A stretch of 25,021 bases of DNA from an uncultured Oscillospiraceae bacterium (GTDB taxonomy: Bacteria > Bacillota > Clostridia > Oscillospirales > Oscillospiraceae). The position numbers were made by a program, and so were the translations under genes. Shown here piece after piece: positions 4,226 to 20,906 of the stretch (its first letter is position 1; each line of letters begins with the position of its first letter). A model generated the notes under the pieces. It saw only the letters and a program-made list of their open reading frames with translations. It ran no database searches and had not been told where the DNA came from. The stretch spans positions 1 through 25,021 of the forward strand of contig CAKTNW010000029.1 of NCBI GenBank assembly GCA_934589145.1, read 5' to 3'.

Positions 4226-4900
4226 TCACTCAAGTTCCGCTTCCGGGACGGATATATGGGATGTGATGGGGATGAGGGGCAGCGCTGTCTCCCCCTTGGC
4301 CTGTTCATACAGCCCGGCGGGCACGGCGGCGGCCTCTACGGCGACGTAGGGCGACAGCATCTCCAGCCCCTGCCGGACACCGTCCAGATACTCCGCCAGC
4401 GTGGTGTCCCCGCCCAGATTGGGATTCAGCAGGAAGCGGGGCATTTTCAGCCGGGCGGCCCGGAGAATGGCGGACAGTGTGCCGTCGATATGCTCGGTGG
4501 TGGCCGACCAGGGGCGGTAAGGGTTCACCACAAACCACACGTCGGCGGTTTTCAGCAGGTGGGCGTATCCGCCGATCAATTTCGCGCCGGTGTCGTTGCC
4601 GCCCACGTCCAGAATCACGGTCTTTTCCTCGTCCAGCAGCAGGGGGATCAATCCGCCCACCTGTGTGGGCGCGTCGGCGCACTGCTGCTGGAAGTGAACG
4701 GTGACGCCCGCCTGTTCCAGAAGGCCCTCCGCGTCACGGGAGCGCATCAGGGGCTTGGTCTGATCCAGGTCGAAGAAGTGGACCTCCCGTCCCTGCCCCG
4801 CCAGCTCCAGCGCCAGATGGACGGCCAGCTCGGATTTTCCGCACCCGGCCTCGCCGAGAAAGACGATGTTCCGCTGCCGCAGCAGCCCTTCCCATGCCAT
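4226..4900 (-). CDS. P-loop ATPase of unknown function heading the oxidoreductase operon
   Basis: This 224-residue soluble protein has a classical Walker A motif (GEAGCGKS, residues 16-23), a strand ending in FFDLDQTKP around residue 45 and a probable Walker B strand TVILDVGGND near residue 95. The later VNPYRPWSATTEH and NPNLGGDTT segments are consistent with a ParA/MinD/NifH-like fold, but I do not recognise a named family. A GTG at 4909 could extend it by three residues. That GTG lies inside the GAGGTGA ribosome binding site that serves the ATG at 4900, so the ATG was chosen. It is the first gene behind the divergent promoter and 31 bp from the ferredoxin gene, suggesting a job in making, loading or regulating the oxidoreductase. 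That job is inference. Confidence 0.8.
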   Translation of the reverse strand: MAWEGLLRQRNIVFLGEAGCGKSELAVHLALELAGQGREVHFFDLDQTKPLMRSRDAEGLLEQAGVTVHFQQQCADAPTQVGGLIPLLLDEEKTVILDVGGNDTGAKLIGGYAHLLKTADVWFVVNPYRPWSATTEHIDGTLSAILRAARLKMPRFLLNPNLGGDTTLAEYLDGVRQGLEMLSPYVAVEAAAVPAGLYEQAKGETALPLIPITSHISVPEAELE

Positions 4901-4958
4901 GGTATTCACCTCGATATATAAAAGTTATCTACACATATAAAATTTTTCTACATTTTGG

Positions 4959-6175: not shown

Positions 6176-8575
6176 TTATTTCAGCTCCACAACGGTGACA
6201 CCGGCCTCGCCCTCGCCATACCGGCCCAGCCGGAAGGACTTGACGGCCCGGTTCCGCTTCAGCATCTCGTGCACCGCCTTGCGCAGCGCACCGGTGCCCT
6301 TGCCGTGGATGATGGTAACGGTGCCCAGCTTGGCCATCACCGCCGCATCGATGTAATTCTCTACCACGCTCTCGGCCTCCAGCGTCTCCATGCCCCGAAT
6401 ATCCAATTCGGAGGCGGCGCGGGCCGCCAGTTGGATCTGGGGCGACACATTCTTCCGCTGGGCGGCGGCCGCCTGCTTCTTCCGCTTCTCGATCTCCTCG
6501 GCGGATTCCAGCAGCCGCACCTGCCCGGCCTTGACGGTCATCTTCATCTTCCCGGCCTGCAGCAGCATAGAGCCGTCGCCGTTGACGTTCAGCACCGTGG
6601 CGGCGGTCTTGACGCCCGCCAGCTCCACCAGGTCGCCCACGGCGATGGGACGGCTGGGCGCGGGAGCCTCCGCCTCCTCGTCCCGACTGTGGAGCACCGC
6701 CTCCGCCTCCTTCAGGTCGTGGCGGATGGCCGCCTTGGCGTCGTTCATCTGCTGGAAATTTGCTGCCCGGGTCTGCTGCTTCCGCAGCTCGTCCAGCTGG
6801 GCGAAGATCTCCTCGGTTTTCTGCTGGGCCTCCCGCACGATGCGCTTGGCCTCGGCCTCGCCCTTGGCACGGGCGTTCTCCTTGGCCTTCTCCATCTGCT
6901 CCCGGAAGATCCGGGCCTTGCGGGCGTCCTCCTCCCGCTGCTGCCACAGGCGGTTGGCCTCGGTCTGGGCCTTTTCCAGCCGCTGCCGCTTCTCCTCCAA
7001 CTGGGCCAGCACGTCCTCGAACCGGAGGGATTCGCTGTCCATCTGGGCCTTGGCGTCGGCGATGACGCTCTCGTCCAGTCCCAGCCGCCGGGAGATGGCA
7101 AAGGCGTTGGACTTGCCGGGGATGCCCACCAGCAGCCGGTAGGTGGGCCGCAGCGTCTGCACGTCGAACTCGCAGCTTGCGTTCTCCACCCCCGCCGTGG
7201 TCATGGCGAAGGTTTTCAGCTCGGCATAGTGGGTGGTGGCGGCAATCAGCGCACCCTTTGACCGGGCGTGCTGGATGATGGCGATGGCCAGCGCCGCGCC
7301 CTCCACCGGGTCGGTGCCCGCGCCCAGCTCGTCGAACAGGATCAGACTATCGTCGTCCGCCTGCCGCAGGATCTCCACCGTGTTGGACATGTGGGCCGAG
7401 AAGGTGGACAGGCTCTGCTCGATGGACTGCTCGTCGCCCACATCCGCCAGGATCCGGTCAAAGACCCGCACCGTGGACCCGCTGTCGGCGGGGATGTGCA
7501 GGCCGCACTGGGCCATCAGGCACAGAAGGCCCAGGGTTTTCAGCGTTACCGTCTTGCCGCCGGTGTTGGGGCCGGTGATCACCAGCGTGTCATAGTCGCC
7601 GCCCAGCTCCACCGTCACCGGCACGGCCTTGGCCTGATCCAGCAGGGGGTGCCGCGCCCGTTTCAGCGAGATCGCGCCCTTGCGCACCACCTCCGGGCGG
7701 CTGGCGTTCATGGTATAGCTCAGCTGGGCCCGGGCAAAGATCATGTCCAGATGCACCAGCATGTCATAGTCCAGCAGGATGTACTCCATGGCGTCGGCGC
7801 ACTGGGCGGACAGCTCCCGCAGGATGCGCTCGATCTCCTTTTCCTCCCGGGCCTCCAGTTCCTTCAGCTCGTTGTTGGCCTGCACCACGCCCATAGGCTC
7901 CACGAACAGCGTGGCGCCGGAGGAGGAGATGTCGTGTACCAGACCCGGCAGACTGCCCTTGCACTCCGCCTTTACCGGCACCACGAACCGTCCGTCCCGC
8001 TGGGTGATCAGCGCCTCCTGCAGCACCTTGGCGTAGGAGGGGGAGGAGATGATCTTCTGCAGGATCTGCCGTCCCTTGCTGGCGGCGATGCGCATTTTCC
8101 GCCGGATGTCCAGCAACTCGGCACTGGCGGTGTCGGCGATGGTCTCCTCGTCCAGGATGGCCCCGTGGATACGATCCTCCAGATATTTGTTGGTGTGCAG
8201 GGCGCTGAAAAAGCGGTCGATGGCCGTGGCCTCGCCCTTGCGCTCGGCGTCGTATTCATAGACTCGCCGGGCAGCCGTCAGCAGTCCCGCGATGTTCAGC
8301 AGCTCACGGGTGTTCAGCATGCCGCCCCGGTCGGCCCGGGCCAGCGGCTCGGACATGTCCTTCACTCCGGAAAAGCTGGGAGAGCCGTACAGTCCCAGCC
8401 GCTCTCTGGCGGCGTCGGTCTCGTCCAGCAGCCGCAGCACCTCCTGCCGGTCGGTGGCGGGCATGATGCGGCGGCTCTTTTCCCGGGCCGCCTCGCTGAC
8501 GGCTCTGGCCGACAGCATCTCCAATACCGCTGGAAGCTCCAGCGTCCGTATGGATTTTTCAAATAATTCACTCAT
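6176..8575 (-). CDS. mutS2: Endonuclease/recombination regulator MutS2
   Basis: The product has 799 residues, close to the usual MutS2 size. The order is an N-terminal helical core, a MutS-type ATPase with Walker A GPNTGGKT (residues 335-342) and Walker B LILFDELGAGTDP, a long charged coiled coil (about 510-640), and a C-terminal Smr nuclease domain (LDIRG about residue 725, HGKGTGALR after it). It lacks the mismatch-recognition domain of MutS1. Family members suppress homologous recombination and rescue collided ribosomes in Bacillota. Start ATG at 8575 has a modest AAGGA upstream. The gene lies downstream of recO on the same strand, but element copy 1 (777 bp gap) separates them. Confidence 0.96.
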   Translation of the reverse strand: MSELFEKSIRTLELPAVLEMLSARAVSEAAREKSRRIMPATDRQEVLRLLDETDAARERLGLYGSPSFSGVKDMSEPLARADRGGMLNTRELLNIAGLLTAARRVYEYDAERKGEATAIDRFFSALHTNKYLEDRIHGAILDEETIADTASAELLDIRRKMRIAASKGRQILQKIISSPSYAKVLQEALITQRDGRFVVPVKAECKGSLPGLVHDISSSGATLFVEPMGVVQANNELKELEAREEKEIERILRELSAQCADAMEYILLDYDMLVHLDMIFARAQLSYTMNASRPEVVRKGAISLKRARHPLLDQAKAVPVTVELGGDYDTLVITGPNTGGKTVTLKTLGLLCLMAQCGLHIPADSGSTVRVFDRILADVGDEQSIEQSLSTFSAHMSNTVEILRQADDDSLILFDELGAGTDPVEGAALAIAIIQHARSKGALIAATTHYAELKTFAMTTAGVENASCEFDVQTLRPTYRLLVGIPGKSNAFAISRRLGLDESVIADAKAQMDSESLRFEDVLAQLEEKRQRLEKAQTEANRLWQQREEDARKARIFREQMEKAKENARAKGEAEAKRIVREAQQKTEEIFAQLDELRKQQTRAANFQQMNDAKAAIRHDLKEAEAVLHSRDEEAEAPAPSRPIAVGDLVELAGVKTAATVLNVNGDGSMLLQAGKMKMTVKAGQVRLLESAEEIEKRKKQAAAAQRKNVSPQIQLAARAASELDIRGMETLEAESVVENYIDAAVMAKLGTVTIIHGKGTGALRKAVHEMLKRNRAVKSFRLGRYGEGEAGVTVVELK

Positions 8576-8657
8576 AATGTTGTATCCTTGATCAATACCT
8601 CTTTTGTCGGTAAACGTAATACTTGTGCGGCGTTACGGTCGGTTTGGTAAAACCTTC

Positions 8658-8743
8658 GTAGGGGCGGGGTTCTACCCCGCCCGCCGCCCGGTGCCGCACG
8701 GCTCCTTGTCCCCCTCCGTAGGGGCCGATGCCCTCATCGGCCC
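8658..8743. repeat. Two GTAGGGGC-type hairpin repeats
   Basis: Two hairpins each begin with GTAGGGGC. The first is GGGCGGGGT/ACCCCGCCC at 8662-8682 with a 3-nt loop. The second is GGGCCGATG/CATCGGCCC at 8722-8743 with loop CCCT. Related units occur at 9093-9114 and 21674-21699. They look like a small dispersed intergenic palindrome. The upstream part (8576-8657) shows no promoter I would defend. Confidence 0.6.
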
Positions 8744-8750
8744 GTTTGGG

Positions 8751-9350
8751 GAATTTCGCCCTCCGGGGCGAGGACGGCCTCCGGCGGGCTACTTTTCCCA
8801 ATCACGCTGTGTAAACACAGCGGATGCTACGGCGGCATAGCCGCCGAGATTGGATGCTAAAAATATGCCACCGGCATATTTTCTTAACGCACCGACTGGA
8901 AAAGTAGCCAAAAGAGCCGGAAGAAACCAATGGTTTCTTCACTTCCTTGCGCGCTATGCGCTGTACAGAATTGTAACTGCCTGCCGCACGTTCACGGGAA
9001 TTCTCTCTTTTCCGTTCCGTCATCGAATCGTCTCTGCTCCTGCGCCGCTGCCGCTGACCGGAACGGAGAAGAGATTCCTGCGTCTATCGCACGGGGCGAT
9101 GCCCTCATCACCCCGCCGGACAACGATCCATTCCCCGCCGTTGATGCGCATGAGCGGCAGCGGCGCAGGAAGGACAGACGATACGTCATACAGCACGATA
9201 ACGACCATGTTCCGTGAACGCGTGGTAAAAGGCCGCAAATTCGTAATCGGAACAGCGTGCGCGGATTCTTAAACCGCAGGTTTAAGCGGCCCTTTTGGAC
9301 ACTTTTGGGGCCGTGGCCAAAAGTGTCCCGCGTCCGAAGACGCGGAACAA
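8751..9350 (+). repeat. Hairpin-array element, copy 1 (between recO and mutS2)
   Basis: This stretch has no credible gene and consists of successive hairpins: 8757-8770; a 12-bp stem 8787-8798/8898-8909 enclosing hairpins 8805-8822, 8830-8846 and 8860-8882; 8921-8939; a large foldback from about 8988 to 9224 whose inner arm 9039-9055 is perfectly complementary to 9153-9169; 9269-9285; 9297-9328 (12-bp stem); and 9329-9344. The same series in the same order occurs in reverse orientation at 11190-11728. The strand given is an arbitrary reference direction. The right end lies 2 nt from the recO stop codon. A GGGGCGATG/CATCACCCC unit inside the foldback loop looks like a nested small repeat. Confidence 0.75.
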
Positions 9351-9352
9351 TT

Positions 9353-10120
9353 CTATTCCTCCTCCACCGGCAAAAACGCCTTGTAGTAGTCCAGCGTCCG
9401 GAACCCCCGCTCCAACTGCACCGCGCAGAAGGCTTCCCCCGCCCGATCCAGCATCCGCATGTCCCGCGCGCCCAGCGTGAAGCCGTACAGCTTCTTGGGC
9501 GGACAGTAGAGGATGTACCGCAGCGCCTGCACGGCGCTCTCCGTCAATGGCAGGCTCAGCCCACCGCCGCTCAGGCGGCATCCGCCGCACCGCAGCACCC
9601 CCTGCATCACGTCCAGCATGGGCGCCTCCGGCATCTCCCGGCCGCAGACGGCGCAGCCGTCCACCAGCGGCGCGAAGCCCGCCGCCTCCATCAGCCGCCA
9701 TACGAAGGCGGTTTTCACCAGCCGCGGCTCCTTGCCCAATGTTCCCAGCGCGAACAGCGCGTTCAGCAGCAGCGGCAGAATTTCCGCCGCCGCCATGGCA
9801 TCCTGACATACCGCCTCTGTCAGCTCGGCGAAATAGGCCGCCAGCGCCAGCCGCTCGATGTCCTGCCGCACGCCGTCAAACAGCTCGATGGTGTTGGCCT
9901 CCGCCAGATAGTACCACTCGCCCTTGCGCCGCAGCGTCATCTCGTCATAGGCCAATAGCTGGCACGCGGCGGTGTACTTGCTGCGGCGGCTCCGCGCCCC
10001 CTTGGCAATGACGCTGATGCGCCCCAGCTCCGGCGTCAGCACCGTCAGTATCTTGTCCGATTCCTTGGTCTCCGTCTCCCGCAGGACAAGGCCCGCGGTC
10101 ACGAATGTTCCGTTGTCCAC
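9353..10120 (-). CDS. recO: DNA repair protein RecO
   Basis: The product is 255 residues from a GTG start. The N-terminal OB-fold (about residues 1-80, LVLRETETKESDKILTVLTP and then GRISVIAKGARR-like) is followed by a helical domain containing a four-cysteine zinc site (CAVC at about 150, CGGC about 20 residues later), as in Bacillota RecO. It loads RecA through RecF/RecO/RecR in gap and double-strand break repair. A longer frame to 10216 exists. GTG at 10120 has GGAGG at a 7-nt spacing and gives the standard length. The start overlaps the yqzL-like gene by 22 nt, so the two are probably coupled. Confidence 0.93.
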   Translation of the reverse strand: MDNGTFVTAGLVLRETETKESDKILTVLTPELGRISVIAKGARSRRSKYTAACQLLAYDEMTLRRKGEWYYLAEANTIELFDGVRQDIERLALAAYFAELTEAVCQDAMAAAEILPLLLNALFALGTLGKEPRLVKTAFVWRLMEAAGFAPLVDGCAVCGREMPEAPMLDVMQGVLRCGGCRLSGGGLSLPLTESAVQALRYILYCPPKKLYGFTLGARDMRMLDRAGEAFCAVQLERGFRTLDYYKAFLPVEEE

Positions 10121-10197
10121 GTCCCGTCCTCCGTACTTCTGGCCATCAGCCACGCCTCCGGCGCGCCGGTGTCCCAGAACAGCTCCCAGTAGTCCAC
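10099..10197 (-). CDS. yqzL: YqzL-like small protein between era and recO
   Basis: This is a 32-residue frame with GTG start: VDYWELFWDTGAPEAWLMAR followed by STEDGTWTTEHS. It has GAGGTGA 7 nt before the start. The pattern W-x-x-F-x-x-T-G-x-x-E/D-A-W/Y-L is the core of the YqzL family, and the position between era and recO is where yqzL lies in Bacillus subtilis. It is shorter than the roughly 47 residues I recall for that protein. Its end overlaps the first codons of recO in another frame. Function is unknown in the family. It is too short for ordinary gene callers. Confidence 0.7.
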   Translation of the reverse strand: MDYWELFWDTGAPEAWLMARSTEDGTWTTEHS

Positions 10198-10252
10198 CGT
10201 CCATCACCTCATGCATAGCATGTGCGTCCGGGGCGGTTCCATGTCTGGTAAT

Positions 10253-11152
10253 TTACTCCTCGTTGAAGCCCTGGCTTCTGATGAAGTTCACATTATCTCT
10301 CCAGTTTTCCTTCACCTTCACCCAGGTCTCCAGATATACCTTGGTACCCATGAATTTTTCGATATCCTGCCGGGCCAGGGTGCTGATGCGCTTCATCATG
10401 TCGCCGTGCTTGCCGATGATGATGCCCTTGTGGCTGGCCTTCTCGCAGTAGATGGTCACATCCAGATCAATAATGCCGCTGTCCCGTTCGGTGAACCGGG
10501 TCACCTCCACCGCCGTGCCGTGGGGGATCTCCTTGTCCAGGCACTGCAGCATCTTCTCCCGCAGGATCTCGGCGCACACCTGGGCGTCGGGCTGATCGGT
10601 GGTCATGCCGTCGGGGAAGAGCTGCGGCCCCTCCTGGGCATAGTTCTGCAGCTGCGCCAGCAGCTCGTCCAGACCGTCGCCGGTGCGGGCGGAGATGGGG
10701 ATGATGGCGTCAAAGCCGCTGTATACCTCGTTATAGGCGGCGATCACCGCCAGCAGATCGTCCTTCTTCTCCACGGTGTCCACCTTGTTGATGCACAGCA
10801 CCACCGGCAGTTTCTCCTCCTCGATACGCCGCAGCAGGATGCGCTCCGGCTCGCCCACATGGGCGATGGGCTCCACCAGCAGCAGCGCGCACTCCACGGC
10901 ACTCAGGCTCTCCCGCACCACCTTCACCATATAGTCGCCCAGGCGGCTGCGGGGCTTGTGCAGGCCCGGCGTATCCAGCAGCACGAACTGGGTGTCGCCC
11001 CGGTTCACCACGCCGTAGATCCGGTTTCTCGTGGTCTGGGGCTTCTTGGATACGATGGCGATCTTTTCGCCCACCAGGGCATTGGTCAGGCTGGACTTGC
11101 CCACATTGGGCCGTCCGCACACGGTGATCATCGCGGTCTTTGTAATGTTCAT
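10253..11152 (-). CDS. era: GTPase Era
   Basis: The product is 299 residues, normal for Era. G1 is GRPNVGKSS (13-21), the G2 region is the conserved SKKPQTTRN, G3 is DTPGLHKP (60-67) and G4 is NKVD near 122. A C-terminal type II KH domain shows IIGKHGDMMKRI near residue 245. Era binds the 3' end of 16S rRNA and is needed for 30S maturation. The start has GAGGAT upstream. It is followed by yqzL and recO. Upstream, element copy 2 separates it from ybeY, where many Bacillota carry yqfF, dgkA and cdd. Confidence 0.97.
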   Translation of the reverse strand: MNITKTAMITVCGRPNVGKSSLTNALVGEKIAIVSKKPQTTRNRIYGVVNRGDTQFVLLDTPGLHKPRSRLGDYMVKVVRESLSAVECALLLVEPIAHVGEPERILLRRIEEEKLPVVLCINKVDTVEKKDDLLAVIAAYNEVYSGFDAIIPISARTGDGLDELLAQLQNYAQEGPQLFPDGMTTDQPDAQVCAEILREKMLQCLDKEIPHGTAVEVTRFTERDSGIIDLDVTIYCEKASHKGIIIGKHGDMMKRISTLARQDIEKFMGTKVYLETWVKVKENWRDNVNFIRSQGFNEE

Positions 11153-11189
11153 TCAGGTGATCCTCAACTTTCTTTTGTTTGAGCAATGT

Positions 11190-11728
11190 TTAGAGTGTTC
11201 CGCGCCCTCGGGCGCGGGTCACTTTTGGCCGCTGTCCCAAAAGTGACCAAAAAGACAGCTTAAACCTGCGGTTTAAGAATCCGCCCACGCTGTCCATATT
11301 ACAAATTTGAAACCCTTTACCACGCGTTCACAGAACACGGCAATTATCGCAGCGTGTGACGTATCGACTTTCTTCTTGCGCCGCTGCCGCTCACTGTCGC
11401 GACGGTAGCCGCTGAAGCGTTGTTCGTCATTGGCATCAGCGGCAGCGACGCTGTTGCTGTGTCAATTCGATAATGAAACGATATAAAACGTCTTGCGTGA
11501 ACGTGTGGTATAGAGCATCAAAAACAGAACAGACATAGCGCGCCCGGAAGTGAAGGAACCGGAGGTTCCTTCTGGCGTTTTTGGGTACTTTTGCCGTCGG
11601 TGCGTTAAAAAATATGCCGGTGGCATATTTTTAGCATCCGATCTCGGCAGCTATGCTGCCGTAGCATCTGCTGTGTTTACACAGCGTGATCAGGCAAAAG
11701 TACCTCGTCCCCGAGGGGACGAAATCCC
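11190..11728 (-). repeat. Hairpin-array element, copy 2 (between ybeY and era)
   Basis: This is the reverse-oriented counterpart of 8751-9350, with the same hairpins in the same order: 11706-11721; closing stem 11584-11595/11693-11704 around hairpins 11670-11685, 11645-11661 and 11609-11631; 11553-11571; a foldback 11320-11508 with inner arms 11378-11391 and 11438-11451; 11260-11276; 11217-11248; and 11201-11216. Several stems differ from copy 1 by matched changes on both arms. The block abuts the ybeY stop codon exactly. Bases 11153-11189 between it and era hold only the era ribosome binding site. No protein-coding frame of credible composition is present. Confidence 0.75.
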
Positions 11729-12220
11729 TTACCTCTCCAACCCCAATTCCGCCATAATAACCTCTTCCCGTTCCCGCATCTGGACCTTCATAGGCCCCTC
11801 GTCCAGATGGTCATAGCCCAGCAGATGCAGCACCGAGTGCACCACCAGATACGCCAGCTCCCGGCGGTTGGAGTGGCCGTACTCCTTTGCCTGGGCCTGT
11901 ACCCGCTCCATGGACAGCACCATGTCGCCCAGGGGCACCAGCCCCGTGCCGGGATCGGCGTCCTCCTGACCGGGCAGCTCACCGGGCGTCAGCTCGAACT
12001 CCGGAAAGCTCAGCACGTCGGTGGGCCGATCCACCTGCCGCATGTCCCGGTTGATCTGATGGATGCCCGCGTCGTCGGTCACCAGCACGTCCACCTCGCA
12101 GGGAAAGTCCACCCCCTGCATGGAAAGCGCCGTGCGGATGACCCGGCGGATCAGTGCCTTCTTCTCGTCGCTTACCCCCGGCACATCGGCGGTGACGGGG
12201 ATGTAATGCCGCTTCGCCAT
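11729..12220 (-). CDS. ybeY: Endoribonuclease YbeY (rRNA maturation factor)
   Basis: The product is 163 residues, typical length. The metal-binding signature HSVLHLLGYDH near residues 128-138 supplies the three histidines of the UPF0054/YbeY family, preceded by RPTDVLSFPE. It acts in 16S rRNA 3'-end maturation and 70S quality control. The start has AGGAGG at 8 nt and overlaps the phoH stop by one base (TAATG). The stop codon is immediately followed by element copy 2. Confidence 0.96.
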   Translation of the reverse strand: MAKRHYIPVTADVPGVSDEKKALIRRVIRTALSMQGVDFPCEVDVLVTDDAGIHQINRDMRQVDRPTDVLSFPEFELTPGELPGQEDADPGTGLVPLGDMVLSMERVQAQAKEYGHSNRRELAYLVVHSVLHLLGYDHLDEGPMKVQMREREEVIMAELGLER

Positions 12221-15875: not shown

Positions 15876-16010
15876 TTCGCCGCCCGCAATGGCGGCGAAC
15901 AAATCGGATCATTTTTTGACGCGTCGGGGCGTTAAGAAAACATGCCGGTGGCATGTTTTTAGTCTCCGATCTCGGCGGCTATGCCGCCGTAGCATCCGTC
16001 TTAATTTTTG
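15876..16010 (-). repeat. Element copy 3: core fragment in the ylbJ-proB gap
   Basis: Hairpins AAAACATGCC/GGCATGTTTT (15937-15959) and CGGCGG/CCGCCG (15973-15989), with the neighbouring GCGTTAAG and CCGATCTCGGCGG words, match the core of copies 1 and 2. The third core hairpin and the 12-bp closing stem are missing, so this is a fragment or a decayed copy. A separate 9-bp hairpin TTCGCCGCC/GGCGGCGAA lies at its left edge (15876-15899). Confidence 0.65.
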
Positions 16011-16054
16011 CCGCACTCCAGTAGAAAAAGCGCGGGTCGGAGCGATTTCTTTAT

Positions 16055-16087
16055 TTGTCAAAAAAGGGCTATGCCCTTTTTTGACAA
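16055..16087 (+). terminator. Terminator-like hairpin just upstream of proB
   Basis: A perfect 15-bp stem TTGTCAAAAAAGGGC with loop TAT and its complement gives the A-tract, G+C stem, T-tract layout of an intrinsic terminator in both directions. It ends about 20 nt before the proB ribosome binding site, leaving no room for a promoter. It could end ylbJ transcripts or act as an attenuator for proBA. Confidence 0.6.
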
Positions 16088-16120
16088 GCTGAAATATCAT
16101 CATCCCGAAGGAGGGATATC

Positions 16121-16906
16121 ATGCGCATTACCGTAAAGGTCGGCACCTCCACCCTGGCCCACGCCACGGGACGGCTGAACATCCAGCGGATGGAAAAGCT
16201 GTGCAAGGTGCTCAGTGATCTGAAAAACGCGGGCCACGAGATTATTCTGGTGTCCTCCGGCGCCATCGGCATGGGTGTGGGCAAGCTGAATCTGCCGGGG
16301 CGGCCCAAGGATATGCCCACCAAGCAGGCGGCCGCCGCCGTGGGCCAGTGTGAGCTGATGTATACCTACGACAAGCTGTTCAACGAGTATAGCCACACGG
16401 TGGCCCAGGTGCTGCTGACCGGCGAGGACGTAAACAACGAGCACCGCAGCCGCAACATGCGCAACACTATTTTCCGGCTGCTGGAGCTGGGCGCGCTGCC
16501 CATCATCAACGAGAACGACGCCGTGGCCACCGACGAGATCGGCGTGGAGAACACCATCGGCGAGAATGACACCCTGTCCGCCATCGTGGCGGCGGCGGTG
16601 GGCGCCGACCTGCTGATCCTGCTGAGCGACATCGATGGCCTGTACGACAGTGACCCTCATAAGAATCCGGACGCGAAGCTCATCAGCACCGTAAGCGCCA
16701 TCGATGACAGTGTCCTGGCGCTGGGCGGCGGCAGCGGCTCGGCCCTGGGCACCGGCGGCATGGCCACCAAGCTCCACGCCGCCCAGGTGGCTACGGCGGC
16801 AGGCTGCGAAATGGTCATCGCCAACGGCCAGCGGCCGGAGCTTCTCTATGACATCGTGGCGGGCAGGCCCGTGGGCACCCGGTTTCTGGCAAAGGAGGGT
16901 AAGTGA
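16121..16906 (+). CDS. proB: Glutamate 5-kinase
   Basis: ProB phosphorylates glutamate with ATP, the first step of proline synthesis. The 261-residue product is an amino-acid-kinase domain only: VKVGTSTL at the N-terminus, LVSSGAIGMGVGKL, INENDAVATDEIG, LLILLSDIDGLYDSDP and GTGGMATKLHAA are all present. The C-terminal PUA domain of the E. coli enzyme (367 residues) is absent, as in other short ProB forms. GAAGGAGGG lies 4 to 5 nt before the start. proA begins directly after the stop codon. Confidence 0.96.
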   Translation: MRITVKVGTSTLAHATGRLNIQRMEKLCKVLSDLKNAGHEIILVSSGAIGMGVGKLNLPGRPKDMPTKQAAAAVGQCELMYTYDKLFNEYSHTVAQVLLTGEDVNNEHRSRNMRNTIFRLLELGALPIINENDAVATDEIGVENTIGENDTLSAIVAAAVGADLLILLSDIDGLYDSDPHKNPDAKLISTVSAIDDSVLALGGGSGSALGTGGMATKLHAAQVATAAGCEMVIANGQRPELLYDIVAGRPVGTRFLAKEGK

Positions 16907-18230: not shown

Positions 18231-19148
18231 TTATCCCTCCAGCTCACGCAAGATCTGCCGCAGAATGTCCACGAATTCCCGGCCTGACTCGCTCAGGGGG
18301 ACGGAGCGGAGCTTGATATAGCCCAGACGCATGTCGTGCTGGCCCGTCAGGGGCACCGTCACCAGCCGGTCGTCGCCGAAGCCCTCCGGCAGCACGCCGC
18401 TTCCGGTGGAGACGCAGTTGGTGTGGGCGATGACGCTGTAAATGGTGGCCCGGTCGGACACATAGACCACCTGGTTGAAGTCGGCGGCGGTGCCCACCAC
18501 CACCTCTTCGGCGTAGTTGAGGTTGGTGTCGCTCTGGGTAAAGGCGGCGTAGGGGTACTGGTGCAGCTGCTCCAGCGTCACGGAGCTTTCTCCGGACAGG
18601 GGATGGCCCCGGCGCATGAACACATGGGGCCGCAGCCGGGCCAGCTGGTGGAATTCCAGATTACGGCCCTCTAAAATACGGCGGATGAAGTGCTCCGTCA
18701 TGTCGGAGACGAAGATGACGCCCAGGTCGCTCTGCTGCTGGGCCACCTGCTCGATGACGGCGGCCATCTCCACCTCCTTGAAGCTGACCTCGATGCGGGG
18801 TTCCTCCCGCAGGTGCAGGAACTCCACGAATGCCTTGGCGCAGAAGGGGTAGCGCTGGGCGGCGATGGAGAGGCTGACCCGGTTTTCCGCCTTGCGCTCG
18901 CTGTAATAGCGGGTGATCTTGCGGCTGCGCTCCACGATGGGGGTGATCTGGTTCAGCAGCTCCCTGCCGTCCTCCGTCAGCGCCACGCCCCGGTTGGAGC
19001 GGTGGAAGATGGTGATGCCCAACTCCTTTTCCACCTCGGCAATGGCGCTGGACAGGGCGGACTGGGACACGAACAGGTTCTGGGCCGCCCGGTTGATGGA
19101 GCCGCAGCGGTCGATCTCCAGAATATAGCTCATCTGCAAAAGCGTCAT
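18231..19148 (-). CDS. LysR family transcriptional regulator
   Basis: The 305-residue product has the LysR winged helix at residues 1-60 (CGSINRAAQNLFVSQSALSS followed by IAEVEKELG and FHRSNRGVALTEDG), a linker helix, and a type 2 periplasmic-binding-protein-like sensor domain (about 90-300). A GTG three codons upstream lies in the GAGGTG ribosome binding site, so ATG at 19148 was chosen. It is divergent from the leucine-rich-repeat/dockerin gene, the usual placement for a LysR target. The co-inducer is unknown. proBA, across the terminator, is a less likely target. Confidence 0.92.
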   Translation of the reverse strand: MTLLQMSYILEIDRCGSINRAAQNLFVSQSALSSAIAEVEKELGITIFHRSNRGVALTEDGRELLNQITPIVERSRKITRYYSERKAENRVSLSIAAQRYPFCAKAFVEFLHLREEPRIEVSFKEVEMAAVIEQVAQQQSDLGVIFVSDMTEHFIRRILEGRNLEFHQLARLRPHVFMRRGHPLSGESSVTLEQLHQYPYAAFTQSDTNLNYAEEVVVGTAADFNQVVYVSDRATIYSVIAHTNCVSTGSGVLPEGFGDDRLVTVPLTGQHDMRLGYIKLRSVPLSESGREFVDILRQILRELEG

Positions 19149-19174
19149 GGCGTGCACCTCACTTTTTTATCTCA

Positions 19175-19203
19175 AGCATACAGGAAATGGGGGAGAAATG
19201 CAA
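19175..19203 (-). promoter_or_regulatory. Possible LysR gene promoter
   Basis: On the minus strand TTGCAT (19203-19198), a 17-bp spacer and TATGCT (19180-19175) form a weak sigma A type promoter that would start transcription near 19168, just upstream of the ribosome binding site. Confidence 0.4.
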
Positions 19204-19231
19204 GAATTTTGAAGAATGGACAAGGTATCGC

Positions 19232-19260
19232 TTGTAAAGCCGGAAATGTTGGTGTACAAT
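19232..19260 (+). promoter_or_regulatory. Promoter of the leucine-rich-repeat/dockerin gene
   Basis: TTGTAA (19232-19237), a 17-bp spacer and TACAAT (19255-19260) give a start near 19267 and a leader of about 32 nt. A perfect inverted repeat ACAAG-N6-CTTGT (about 19220-19235) overlaps the -35 box and could be a binding site for the divergent LysR protein. Confidence 0.65.
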
Positions 19261-19298
19261 CGACGATACAGAGACTTTTCGAGAAAAGGAGAGAGTGT

Positions 19299-20906
19299 AT
19301 GAAAAAGCGCGTAGTAAGCATGGTGCTGGCCTTGGTGATGCTGTGCAGTCTGACCGTGTCGGCCTGGGCCGAAGACCCGATCGTGGCCAGCGGCCAGTGC
19401 GGCGACAGTGACACGGAATCAAGGATCCAGTGGCTGCTGTTGAACACCGGAAAACTGGAGATTTCCGGCCAGGGGCATATGGAGAATTATACCTATTACA
19501 GTAGTGCTCCGTGGGCAGGGTATAAGGAACAGATCAAAGAGGTCGTGATTTACGGGCTGCAGGATGAGCTGCAAAGCTGTGTGCTCTCCATTGGAAATTA
19601 TGCCTTTTATGGGTGTGCGAATCTGACAACGGTCACGATCGCGGATACAGTTGCGGTGATAGGCTCGAGTGCTTTTGGAGACTGTGAAAGCCTGAAGGAG
19701 ATCGCGATCCCGGACTCTGTGGGAAAAATCGACGGAGCATTTTGGGGGAGCGGGATTGAAAGCATTCGGCTGCCTGCGGGGCTGACCAGTATCGGTGAGA
19801 ATACGTTTTCTGGCTGTGAGAACTTAAAGGAAGTGACGCTTCCGGAGAGCTTAACCAGTATCGGGAGAGATGCCTTTTCTAAATCGGGCTTGACCAGAAT
19901 AGTAATTCCGGATTCTGTAAGTGAGATCGGACAATCTGCGTTTAGCCGATGCATGGAGCTGGAATATGTGCGGCTGCCGGACGCCCTGGAGGAATTATCT
20001 GAATGGTTGTTTTACGGCAGCTATAAGCTTAAAAAAGTGGAAAATATTTCCCCTACCGTAAAAACAATATCCGATTCGGCGTTTAACAAATGTATATCGC
20101 TGGAAAGCGTTGAAATTCCGTTTGGCATTGAGACGATTGGTAGTCATGCCTTTTTGTGGTGCGAAAGCCTGCCGGAGATCACGATTCCTGACAGCGTCAA
20201 GACGATTGAAATATCTGCATTTAATTATTGTAAGAGCTTAAAGGAGGTTACGATTCCTGCCGGCGTGACGGAGATCGGGCGGTGCGCATTTGCTGGCTGC
20301 GATAGCCTACAGGCGGTCTATGTGGCCGAGGACAACCCGGCCTATCAGTCGGTGGACGGTGCACTGCTGTCAAAGGACGGAACAACGCTGTACTGCTGTC
20401 CGGGAGCAAAGACCGGGTGCTATGAGATCCCCGAAGGGGTGACCACATTGGAGAGAAATTCAATCTTTTGCCCCAAATTGGAGACGCTCGTGTTCCCGTC
20501 AACGGTGGAATCTGCTTATTATGCGGTCGAAGGATGCCTTGCGTTGACCAGCTGCTTCTTCCGCGGGCCGGGTGTGGAAGACTTCAACAACCTGCGCGCG
20601 TATGGCGCGACCTTCTACTACATTGAGGGCCAGCCCGGCTGGACATCGCCCACCTGCTACGGGCACCAGACCGCCCTGTGGGACGGCGGCAGCCTGATCC
20701 CCGGCACGCTGCTTGATGGTGACACCAACGGTGACAGCAAGGTGGACGCCACGGATCTGCAGCAGCTCTATGGTTACCTCACCGGCCAGGTGACGCTGGG
20801 TATGGCCCAGAAGATGGCCGCCGATTACAACGGCGACGGTATGGTGGACGTGTACGACCTGCAGGCGTTGTATGAGCACCTGGCCCTGCAGGGAACGGCG
20901 CAATAA
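19299..20906 (+). CDS. Secreted BspA-like leucine-rich-repeat protein with C-terminal dockerin
   Basis: The 535-residue product has a signal peptide (residues 1-24, MKKRVVSMVLALVMLCSLTV then SAWA). About ten LRR_5/BspA-type repeats follow (roughly 105-430), with the recurring pattern IPDSV-x-x-IG-x-x-AF-x-x-C-x-x-L. A type I dockerin closes it (475-531), with two calcium loops DTNGDSKVDATD and DYNGDGMVDVYD. BspA repeats mediate adhesion or surface binding, and dockerins dock onto cohesins. The frame is open upstream to 18690, but the ATG at 19299 has AAAGGAGAG and starts the signal peptide. The repeat region is clearly more A+T-rich (21 of 60 G+C at 20041-20100) than the dockerin end (38 of 60 at 20701-20760), suggesting a mosaic origin. 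Confidence 0.9.
   Translation: MKKRVVSMVLALVMLCSLTVSAWAEDPIVASGQCGDSDTESRIQWLLLNTGKLEISGQGHMENYTYYSSAPWAGYKEQIKEVVIYGLQDELQSCVLSIGNYAFYGCANLTTVTIADTVAVIGSSAFGDCESLKEIAIPDSVGKIDGAFWGSGIESIRLPAGLTSIGENTFSGCENLKEVTLPESLTSIGRDAFSKSGLTRIVIPDSVSEIGQSAFSRCMELEYVRLPDALEELSEWLFYGSYKLKKVENISPTVKTISDSAFNKCISLESVEIPFGIETIGSHAFLWCESLPEITIPDSVKTIEISAFNYCKSLKEVTIPAGVTEIGRCAFAGCDSLQAVYVAEDNPAYQSVDGALLSKDGTTLYCCPGAKTGCYEIPEGVTTLERNSIFCPKLETLVFPSTVESAYYAVEGCLALTSCFFRGPGVEDFNNLRAYGATFYYIEGQPGWTSPTCYGHQTALWDGGSLIPGTLLDGDTNGDSKVDATDLQQLYGYLTGQVTLGMAQKMAADYNGDGMVDVYDLQALYEHLALQGTAQ

Follow-up and report, generated by a model that had tools for sequence, protein, structure and literature searches.

A palindromic intergenic element of gut Clostridia, probably mobile, with a loop-linker pseudoknot in its end modules

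Two stretches of DNA in an uncultured Oscillospiraceae bacterium carry the same series of hairpins, and the question they raise is whether their conserved pairing belongs to a functional RNA or to a mobile element. Both lie in the window, the 25,021-nt stretch analysed here, in which a Pfam scan identified minus-strand genes including MutS2, RecO, Era, YbeY, PhoH and YqfD. The stretches at 8751-9350 (plus strand) and 11190-11728 (minus strand) are diverged copies of one palindromic non-coding element, 76.6% identical over 539 columns of a MAFFT alignment. The window sequence bore out the original prediction that the two are mutually inverted with a common stem order, and all five stem changes that it had described as paired were found. 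Its reading of the stretches as non-coding was also right, since the element contains no protein. RNA folding gave -278 kcal/mol for copy 1 (z -12.0, none of 20 shuffles being as good) and -245.8 kcal/mol for copy 2 (z -13.1, none of 100 shuffles).

One part of the prediction needs correcting, namely that there are no obvious terminal inverted repeats. The ends are one module that is inverted in architecture, though the sequences differ. The plan common to the family comprises an outer hairpin H1, two further hairpins joined by an A-rich linker (H2, with a stem of about 12 bp, and the short-looped H3, with about 8-10 bp), a core, and the mirrored module. The core of about 250-300 nt is largely but imperfectly self-paired, the whole element measures about 400-600 bp, H1 is usually present, and the left and right modules within one genome are usually of differing types. 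By eye, the inward loops of H1 in the window, in G001 and in G228 are often TCCG, TTCG or TGCG, i.e., UNCG when read as RNA. Positions in the window copies are listed in Table 1.

Table 1. Positions of the two element copies and their parts in the window
Feature	Position	Strand	Remarks
Copy 1 of the element	8751..9350	+	between RecO (9353-10216, minus strand) and MutS2 (6176-8575, minus strand)
Copy 1, outer hairpin H1, left end	8756..8771	+	TCGCCC-TCCG-GGGCGA
Copy 1, left-end hairpin H2	8787..8909	+	arms 8787-8798 and 8898-8909; module A in loop
Copy 1, module A	8799..8892	+	independent repeat unit with three hairpins, inside H2 loop
Copy 1, left A-rich linker	8910..8919	+	AGCCG 8915-8919 opposite CGACT 8893-8897: pseudoknot with one A-C
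Copy 1, left-end hairpin H3	8920..8940	+	GAAGAAACC/GGTTTCTTC
Copy 1, core	8941..9267	+	central stem 9040-9055 with 9153-9168
REP-like hairpin inside core, copy 1 only	9088..9115	+	
Copy 1, right-end hairpin H3	9268..9286	+	CTTAAACC/GGTTTAAG
Copy 1, right-end linker	9287..9296	+	CGGCCC 9287-9292 opposite GGGCCG 9308-9313: pseudoknot
Copy 1, right-end hairpin H2	9297..9328	+	GGACACTTTTGG/CCAAAAGTGTCC, 8-nt loop
Copy 1, outer hairpin H1, right end	9329..9344	+	CGCGTC-CGAA-GACGCG
Copy 2 of the element	11190..11728	-	between YbeY (11729-12220, minus strand) and Era (10253-11152, minus strand)
Copy 2, right-end module	11217..11277	-	H2 11217-11248; linker 11249-11258 (GACAG opposite loop CTGTC); H3 11259-11277
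Copy 2, left-end module	11552..11595	-	H3 11552-11572, linker, H2 inner arm 11584-11595, outer arm 11693-11704
Copy 2, module A, nested in H2 loop	11596..11692	-	
Copy 2, outer hairpin H1, left end	11705..11722	-	

Between the local hairpins of the two copies 64 pairs were countable, a set that omits the left outer hairpin (out of register) and the right outer hairpin (removed by the no-overlap rule of the script). Fifty-six pairs were unchanged, four had both bases replaced to give a different Watson-Crick pair, three had become G-U and one A-C. When the same 64 pairs were randomly re-paired, the mean number of double changes was 0.57, and four or more were obtained in 2 of 5000 trials.

The element belongs to a wider family. 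Searching the genome collection with RecO gave 18 loci, the best of which, L001, was 89% identical; of the seven genomes reached through these loci, three had matches to the element: 22 in G001, from which L001 comes, four short ones in G004 and one in G006. When 99 relatives were searched for the element, with G001 among them, nine had matches. A covariance model of the H2-linker-H3 module, called R1, was built from 39 modules with the pseudoknot pairing left out, and showed changes on both sides at 14 of its 17 pairs. In the family to which G001 belongs, 70 of 200 genomes had an R1 match (E<=0.01), nine of these 70 with at least 24 matches each. At E<=1e-4 the model matched 21 of 295 genomes sampled from the order and, among those sampled from the phylum, 7 of 398, G001 being counted in both. 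Among the matches listed, the element occupies at least about 16 places in G093, at least about 19 in G320 and over 25 in G070. The sequence of the element is characteristic of each lineage. The comparison with Rfam that had been proposed gave no family match at the gathering score for the window or for 19 loci, and at E<=5 positions 8600-11760 returned only chance-level matches. Literature searches found no description of this repeat.

The pairing between the H2 loop and the linker, a pseudoknot, is conserved across the family. The loop is complementary to the end of the linker, and the complementary sequences vary by module (TGGCG/CGCCA, GACAG/CTGTC, TCGG/CCGA, GTCGC/GCGAC). From 134 R1 matches of at least 37 bits we obtained 114 unique parsed modules, seven matches being unparsed and the rest duplicates. 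Simple shape limits retained 105 of the 114; the nine dropped include both left-end modules of the window, which have module A in the H2 loop, and that of copy 2, left out of the family test in this way, shows weak loop-linker pairing by eye. In loop plus linker, 88 of the 105 were unique. Over the best five facing columns, these 88 pairs had a mean of 3.98 Watson-Crick pairs, against 2.79 (sd 0.074) when linkers were dealt among modules irrespective of kinship, and none of 2000 deals reached the observed value; shuffling the letters within each linker gave a mean of 3.03. For 74 pairs from outside the discovery loci, with later groups added and three modules with a misparsed H3 kept, the values were 3.93 and 2.80 (sd 0.088), again with 0 of 2000 deals. 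Two small later groups taken alone (8 and 9 pairs) were equalled in 2 and 17 of 2000 deals, respectively. The commonest mismatch in the pseudoknot, read inward, was A-C (AC 30 and CA 4, versus 5 for GT and TG together), with many cases from related lineages; such a mismatch is a G-U pair on the outward strand.

Empty sites in relatives, which the original prediction had suggested looking for, were found. In L001, the closest relative found, RecO and MutS2 are immediate neighbours with nothing inserted between them, copy 1 being absent, while the gap between YbeY and Era has just a short H1-like hairpin remnant in place of copy 2. Two further empty sites came from L227 of G093, which holds three elements, one common to G320 and two missing there. 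The G320 gaps at the missing sites are 53 and 5 bp long and the flanks are 87-96% identical. The third L227 site has an insert of about 0.9 kb, in which the element is bordered by rows of short G+C-rich hairpins. At the cleanest junction of the L227/G320 comparison there was no clear target-site duplication, the junction being ambiguous by about 3-6 bp. Because sites are empty in relatives, including the syntenic pair G093 and G320, genome comparison indicates that the element is mobile.

A similar comparison was made at the junction of dnaN and yaaA, genes identified by Pfam (beta clamp and S4 domain). Forty genomes were searched, 24 matched, and 20 junctions were fetched besides that of G014; G029, G030 and G003 were not judgeable. 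The element is present in G014 and G001. The 20 junctions comprised 17 short gaps, about 180 bp of other DNA in G018, a REP array in G010 and the element in G001. The array of G010 (L160) is made of GTAGGGG-type hairpins and occupies the gap in which G001 and G014 have the element. The G001 and G014 elements have only short stretches in common (the best of 27 bp), and the dnaN-yaaA element of G014 is matched by five other loci of that genome at 1e-61 to 1e-80. This dissimilarity at one locus would be consistent with independent arrivals or with copies being homogenised inside each genome. Between two genomes, elements occupying a common locus were 85-89% identical, and copies within a genome reached 97% over 469 bp in G093, 94% over 487 bp in G278 and 92% over 558 bp in G320. 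The greater similarity within genomes would result from recent amplification or gene conversion. Between the copies of G001, end modules are swapped mosaically.

Other repeats occur in and around the element. Module A was absent from the 11 G001 element copies read. It stands alone at window positions 15923-15998, with hairpins GGCATGTTTT/AAAACATGCC and CGGCGGC/GCCGCCG, and is also solitary in G001 (L036) and, partially, in G006 (L022). REP-like hairpins starting with GTAGGGG adjoin copy 1 at 8651-8745 and lie within it at 9088-9115. Three G001 copies (L068, L069 and L070) have a GGCGCCGTGAAGCGAAGCGG unit inserted in the core, and in L068 a CAAAATTTC...GAAATTTTG repeat takes the place of one H2 arm. 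In the group of G093, G320, G278 and G070, short hairpins rich in G+C, each about 20 bp long, stand in rows beside the element (L227 18540-19460, L219-L226), and at site 3 of L227 these rows are missing from G320 along with the element. Elsewhere in the window, a long hairpin (GTCAAAAAAGGGC/GCCCTTTTTTGAC, 16053-16090) lies just 5' of an amino-acid kinase gene (16121-16906, plus strand), and the plus-strand ORF 18690-20906 encodes BspA-type leucine-rich repeats with a C-terminal dockerin domain.

The element might instead be a large structured RNA, either a free non-coding RNA or one embedded in mRNA, with two pseudoknotted end domains and spread by duplication or by the usefulness of an RNA gene. 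In favour of this, an H-type pseudoknot with an A-rich linker is kept over the 74 independent pairs, and strongly conserved stretches are present in 13 cores from the window and G001. The consensus of these 13 cores also folds better on the plus strand (-92.5 versus -79.7 kcal/mol, both far below column shuffles), which together with the bias toward A-C over G-U in the pseudoknot gives a hint of RNA. The H2 and H3 stems argue otherwise. Among 2207 pairs in 107 modules, with 77 different H2 arms and 48 different H3 arms, there were 3 G-U, 9 A-C and 11 other non-Watson-Crick pairs; seven of the 114 modules were dropped from this count as misparsed, and H3 was included at 7 bp or more. The parser penalises all non-Watson-Crick pairs and trims stems, so that G-U is somewhat undercounted (e.g., in L118), but the comparison of G-U with A-C is fair since both are penalised alike. 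A small control of five tRNAs, parsed differently from H2 and H3, gave 4 G-U in 108 pairs.

Scarcity of G-U is accompanied by a lack of consistent strand preference. Elements at the same locus were compared in three cases, each in both directions, with hairpins of the flanking rows possibly misaligned. In local perfect hairpins 594 pairs were the same, 46 had double changes to Watson-Crick pairs, one a double change to G-U and five a double change that broke the pair; single changes gave 10 G-U, 11 A-C and 15 broken pairs, and 82 pairs involved a gap. Over all pairs of the predicted folds, single changes gave 48 G-U, 44 A-C and 84 broken pairs. Near-equal numbers of G-U and A-C are what sites free of strand-specific constraint would show. 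Whole elements, 27 of which were folded, had the lower energy on the forward strand in 13 of the 20 with defined orientation (mean -3 kcal/mol). Since H2 and H3 are nearly purely Watson-Crick and neither strand consistently folds better, the signature is not that of a classic RNA. An RNA is further disfavoured by the absence of an Rfam match. We consider a structured RNA unlikely, though still a reading to be reckoned with. Neighbouring genes occur in all orientations: among 36 elements examined, the 33 flanked on both sides had 14 codirectional, 10 convergent and 9 divergent neighbours, a count too rough to carry weight, as it was made with a crude ORF picker that took wrong frames in places, e.g., beside copy 2.

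The original prediction had taken the paired substitutions to mean conserved pairing, as in a functional RNA or a mobile element. Pairing beyond chance and mobility both stood, but paired changes alone do not prove a functional RNA, because G-U is scarce, and about equals A-C between copies at the same locus, and no strand is consistently favoured, and also because template switching can give double changes and REPINs show them as well. Template switching is described as making multibase compensatory changes in one step, thereby creating or mending hairpin arms (PMC8794818), and compensatory changes are also described in REPINs, which are mobile DNA (PMC3116915). With moderate confidence, pairing at the level of DNA is favoured over RNA.

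An asymmetric relative with one end also bears on the RNA reading. Eight copies of this element, about 255 nt long with sharp boundaries, were found in the phylum sample, spread over the genomes G694, G813, G854 and G874. It opens with the H2-linker-H3 module, and because of this the end module can be regarded as a reusable unit. Its asymmetry and sharp ends would suit a structured RNA; its alignment gives similar folds for the two strands (-58.0 inward and -54.1 outward), so the lack of a consistent strand extends to it. These relatives (L192-L195 and L199-L202) have GGA in hairpin loops opposite the module strand (CAAGGAUG, CAUGGAUG). GGA loops recall CsrA-binding RNAs. CsrA is present in G813, G854 and G874 and was not found in G694; it was detected in 3 of 10 genomes tested that carry two-ended elements (G064, G255 and G107; not G001, G014, G228, G248, G159, G320 or G278). 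As CsrA is this patchy across the tested genomes, a CsrA sponge was rejected as a general explanation of the window family.

Another alternative treats the copies as passive palindromic debris, with hairpins created and kept perfect by template switching in replication, copies spread and made alike by ordinary recombination, and a fold that has no role in movement or function. The multibase compensatory changes attributed to template switching (PMC8794818), the double changes with few intermediates and the mosaic swapping of end modules among the G001 copies agree with this view. It leaves unexplained the complementarity of loop and linker, which is not a simple hairpin, the fixed order of H2, linker and H3 with usually distinct left and right types over many genomes, and the amplification to tens of copies. 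We judge passive debris to be rather improbable.

A mover was sought among known enzymes. The Pfam scan of 20 window ORFs detected no transposase catalytic domain; ORF 4226-4909 gave a borderline match to an IstB-type ATP-binding protein (E 2.8e-5). An ordinary REPIN/BIME or an IS200/IS605-type element moved by a Y1 (RAYT) transposase would account for inverted hairpin ends, intergenic location, many copies and the lack of a clear target duplication, and compensatory changes are seen as in REPINs (PMC3116915). Y1 transposase (PF01797) was detected in 82 of the 200 genomes of the family draw, namely in 8 of the 23 in which R1 matches at least 10 times and in 74 of the remaining 177, and mobilisation of the REPIN/RAYT type was rejected on finding no association with copy number over the 200 genomes. 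Y1_Tnp was not found in five high-copy genomes (G001, G064, G107, G115, G255) or in G093, G320, G278 and G070, and by eye the ends have no GTAG-type guide. A Y1-moved element of ordinary type is thus very improbable. Mobilisation by a reverse transcriptase, or derivation from a group II intron, was likewise rejected, as RVT_1 was present in G014, G255 and G163 and not found in the other 11 of the 14 high-copy genomes. Since some genomes may lack part of their sequence, the absence of an enzyme from any one of them carries little weight; the pattern of absences speaks against both Y1 transposase and reverse transcriptase.

Mobile-element and virus records were searched as well. Among phage records, a window copy gave one 59-bp match in one record, and the G014 element matched five unannotated faecal 'Bacteriophage sp.' records. 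In plasmid records the window matched once, through the REP-like stretch beside the element and outside it, and the G014 element had no match there. In IMG/VR, two typed end-module patterns gave no matches; among the 247 loci of this analysis they recover 23 and 14, respectively.

Known systems resemble the element in part. Large ornate RNAs such as GOLLD, ROOL and OLE are long and have many stems and pseudoknots; unlike them, the element is mirror-symmetric, occurs in many copies, has few G-U pairs in its hairpins and matches nothing in Rfam. MITEs and BOX/ERIC-type repeats are small non-coding palindromic intergenic repeats. The element may differ from them in that an incidental look noticed no parent transposon with matching ends and that no clear target duplication was seen at the ambiguous junction. 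With IS200/IS605 elements it shares hairpins at the ends and short base pairing; in those elements, subterminal hairpins and a short pairing between guide and target tetranucleotide are described as deciding the recognition of single-stranded DNA (PMC6006769). Here, in contrast, the ends are mirror-symmetric, no tnpA was seen in the element copies read, and Y1 was not found in several high-copy genomes.

The closest likeness in lifestyle is to REPINs and BIMEs, which are also non-coding, intergenic and multicopy, with two inverted hairpin-forming ends and a spacer. REPINs are described as folding, by prediction, into a single long hairpin in which compensatory changes are common (PMC3116915), whereas each end of the present element has two hairpins with a loop-linker pseudoknot. 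It is also larger, 400-600 bp as compared with the 71 bp given for the distance between the conserved 16-mers of a GI REPIN (PMC3116915), has by eye no GTAG-type guide, as defined in PMC6006769, at the feet of its modules, and shows no link to a Y1 transposase. By the tests made, the element is REPIN-like in lifestyle and not a REPIN.

On balance we lean, by a modest degree, toward a non-autonomous intergenic mobile DNA element that has the lifestyle of REPINs and BIMEs and another design. Such an element would spread in trans. Its ends may be recognised by a recombinase as folded single-stranded DNA exposed in replication, and copies within a genome would be homogenised by gene conversion that exchanges whole hairpin units. 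The arms could stay complementary for two reasons: a foldable end would be needed to move, and template switching inside hairpins would repair them. More tentatively, and with more doubt than belief, we propose a new class of non-autonomous element, in which each end would have to fold as hairpin-pseudoknot-hairpin on single-stranded DNA (or an RNA copy), the mover would be neither Y1 nor a reverse transcriptase, and the same end unit would serve in the one-ended 255-nt element found elsewhere in the phylum.

The case is a warning that a functional RNA need not lie behind strong paired substitutions in the intergenic DNA of bacteria; counts of G-U and A-C, together with folds of both strands, help to tell RNA from DNA readings. 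If the mobile-element reading is true, the ends would provide a concrete and testable folding code, in which the loop pairs with the linker, and gut Clostridia would carry an abundant, overlooked mobile palindrome that alters the gaps between core genes such as dnaN-yaaA, RecO-MutS2 and Era-YbeY.
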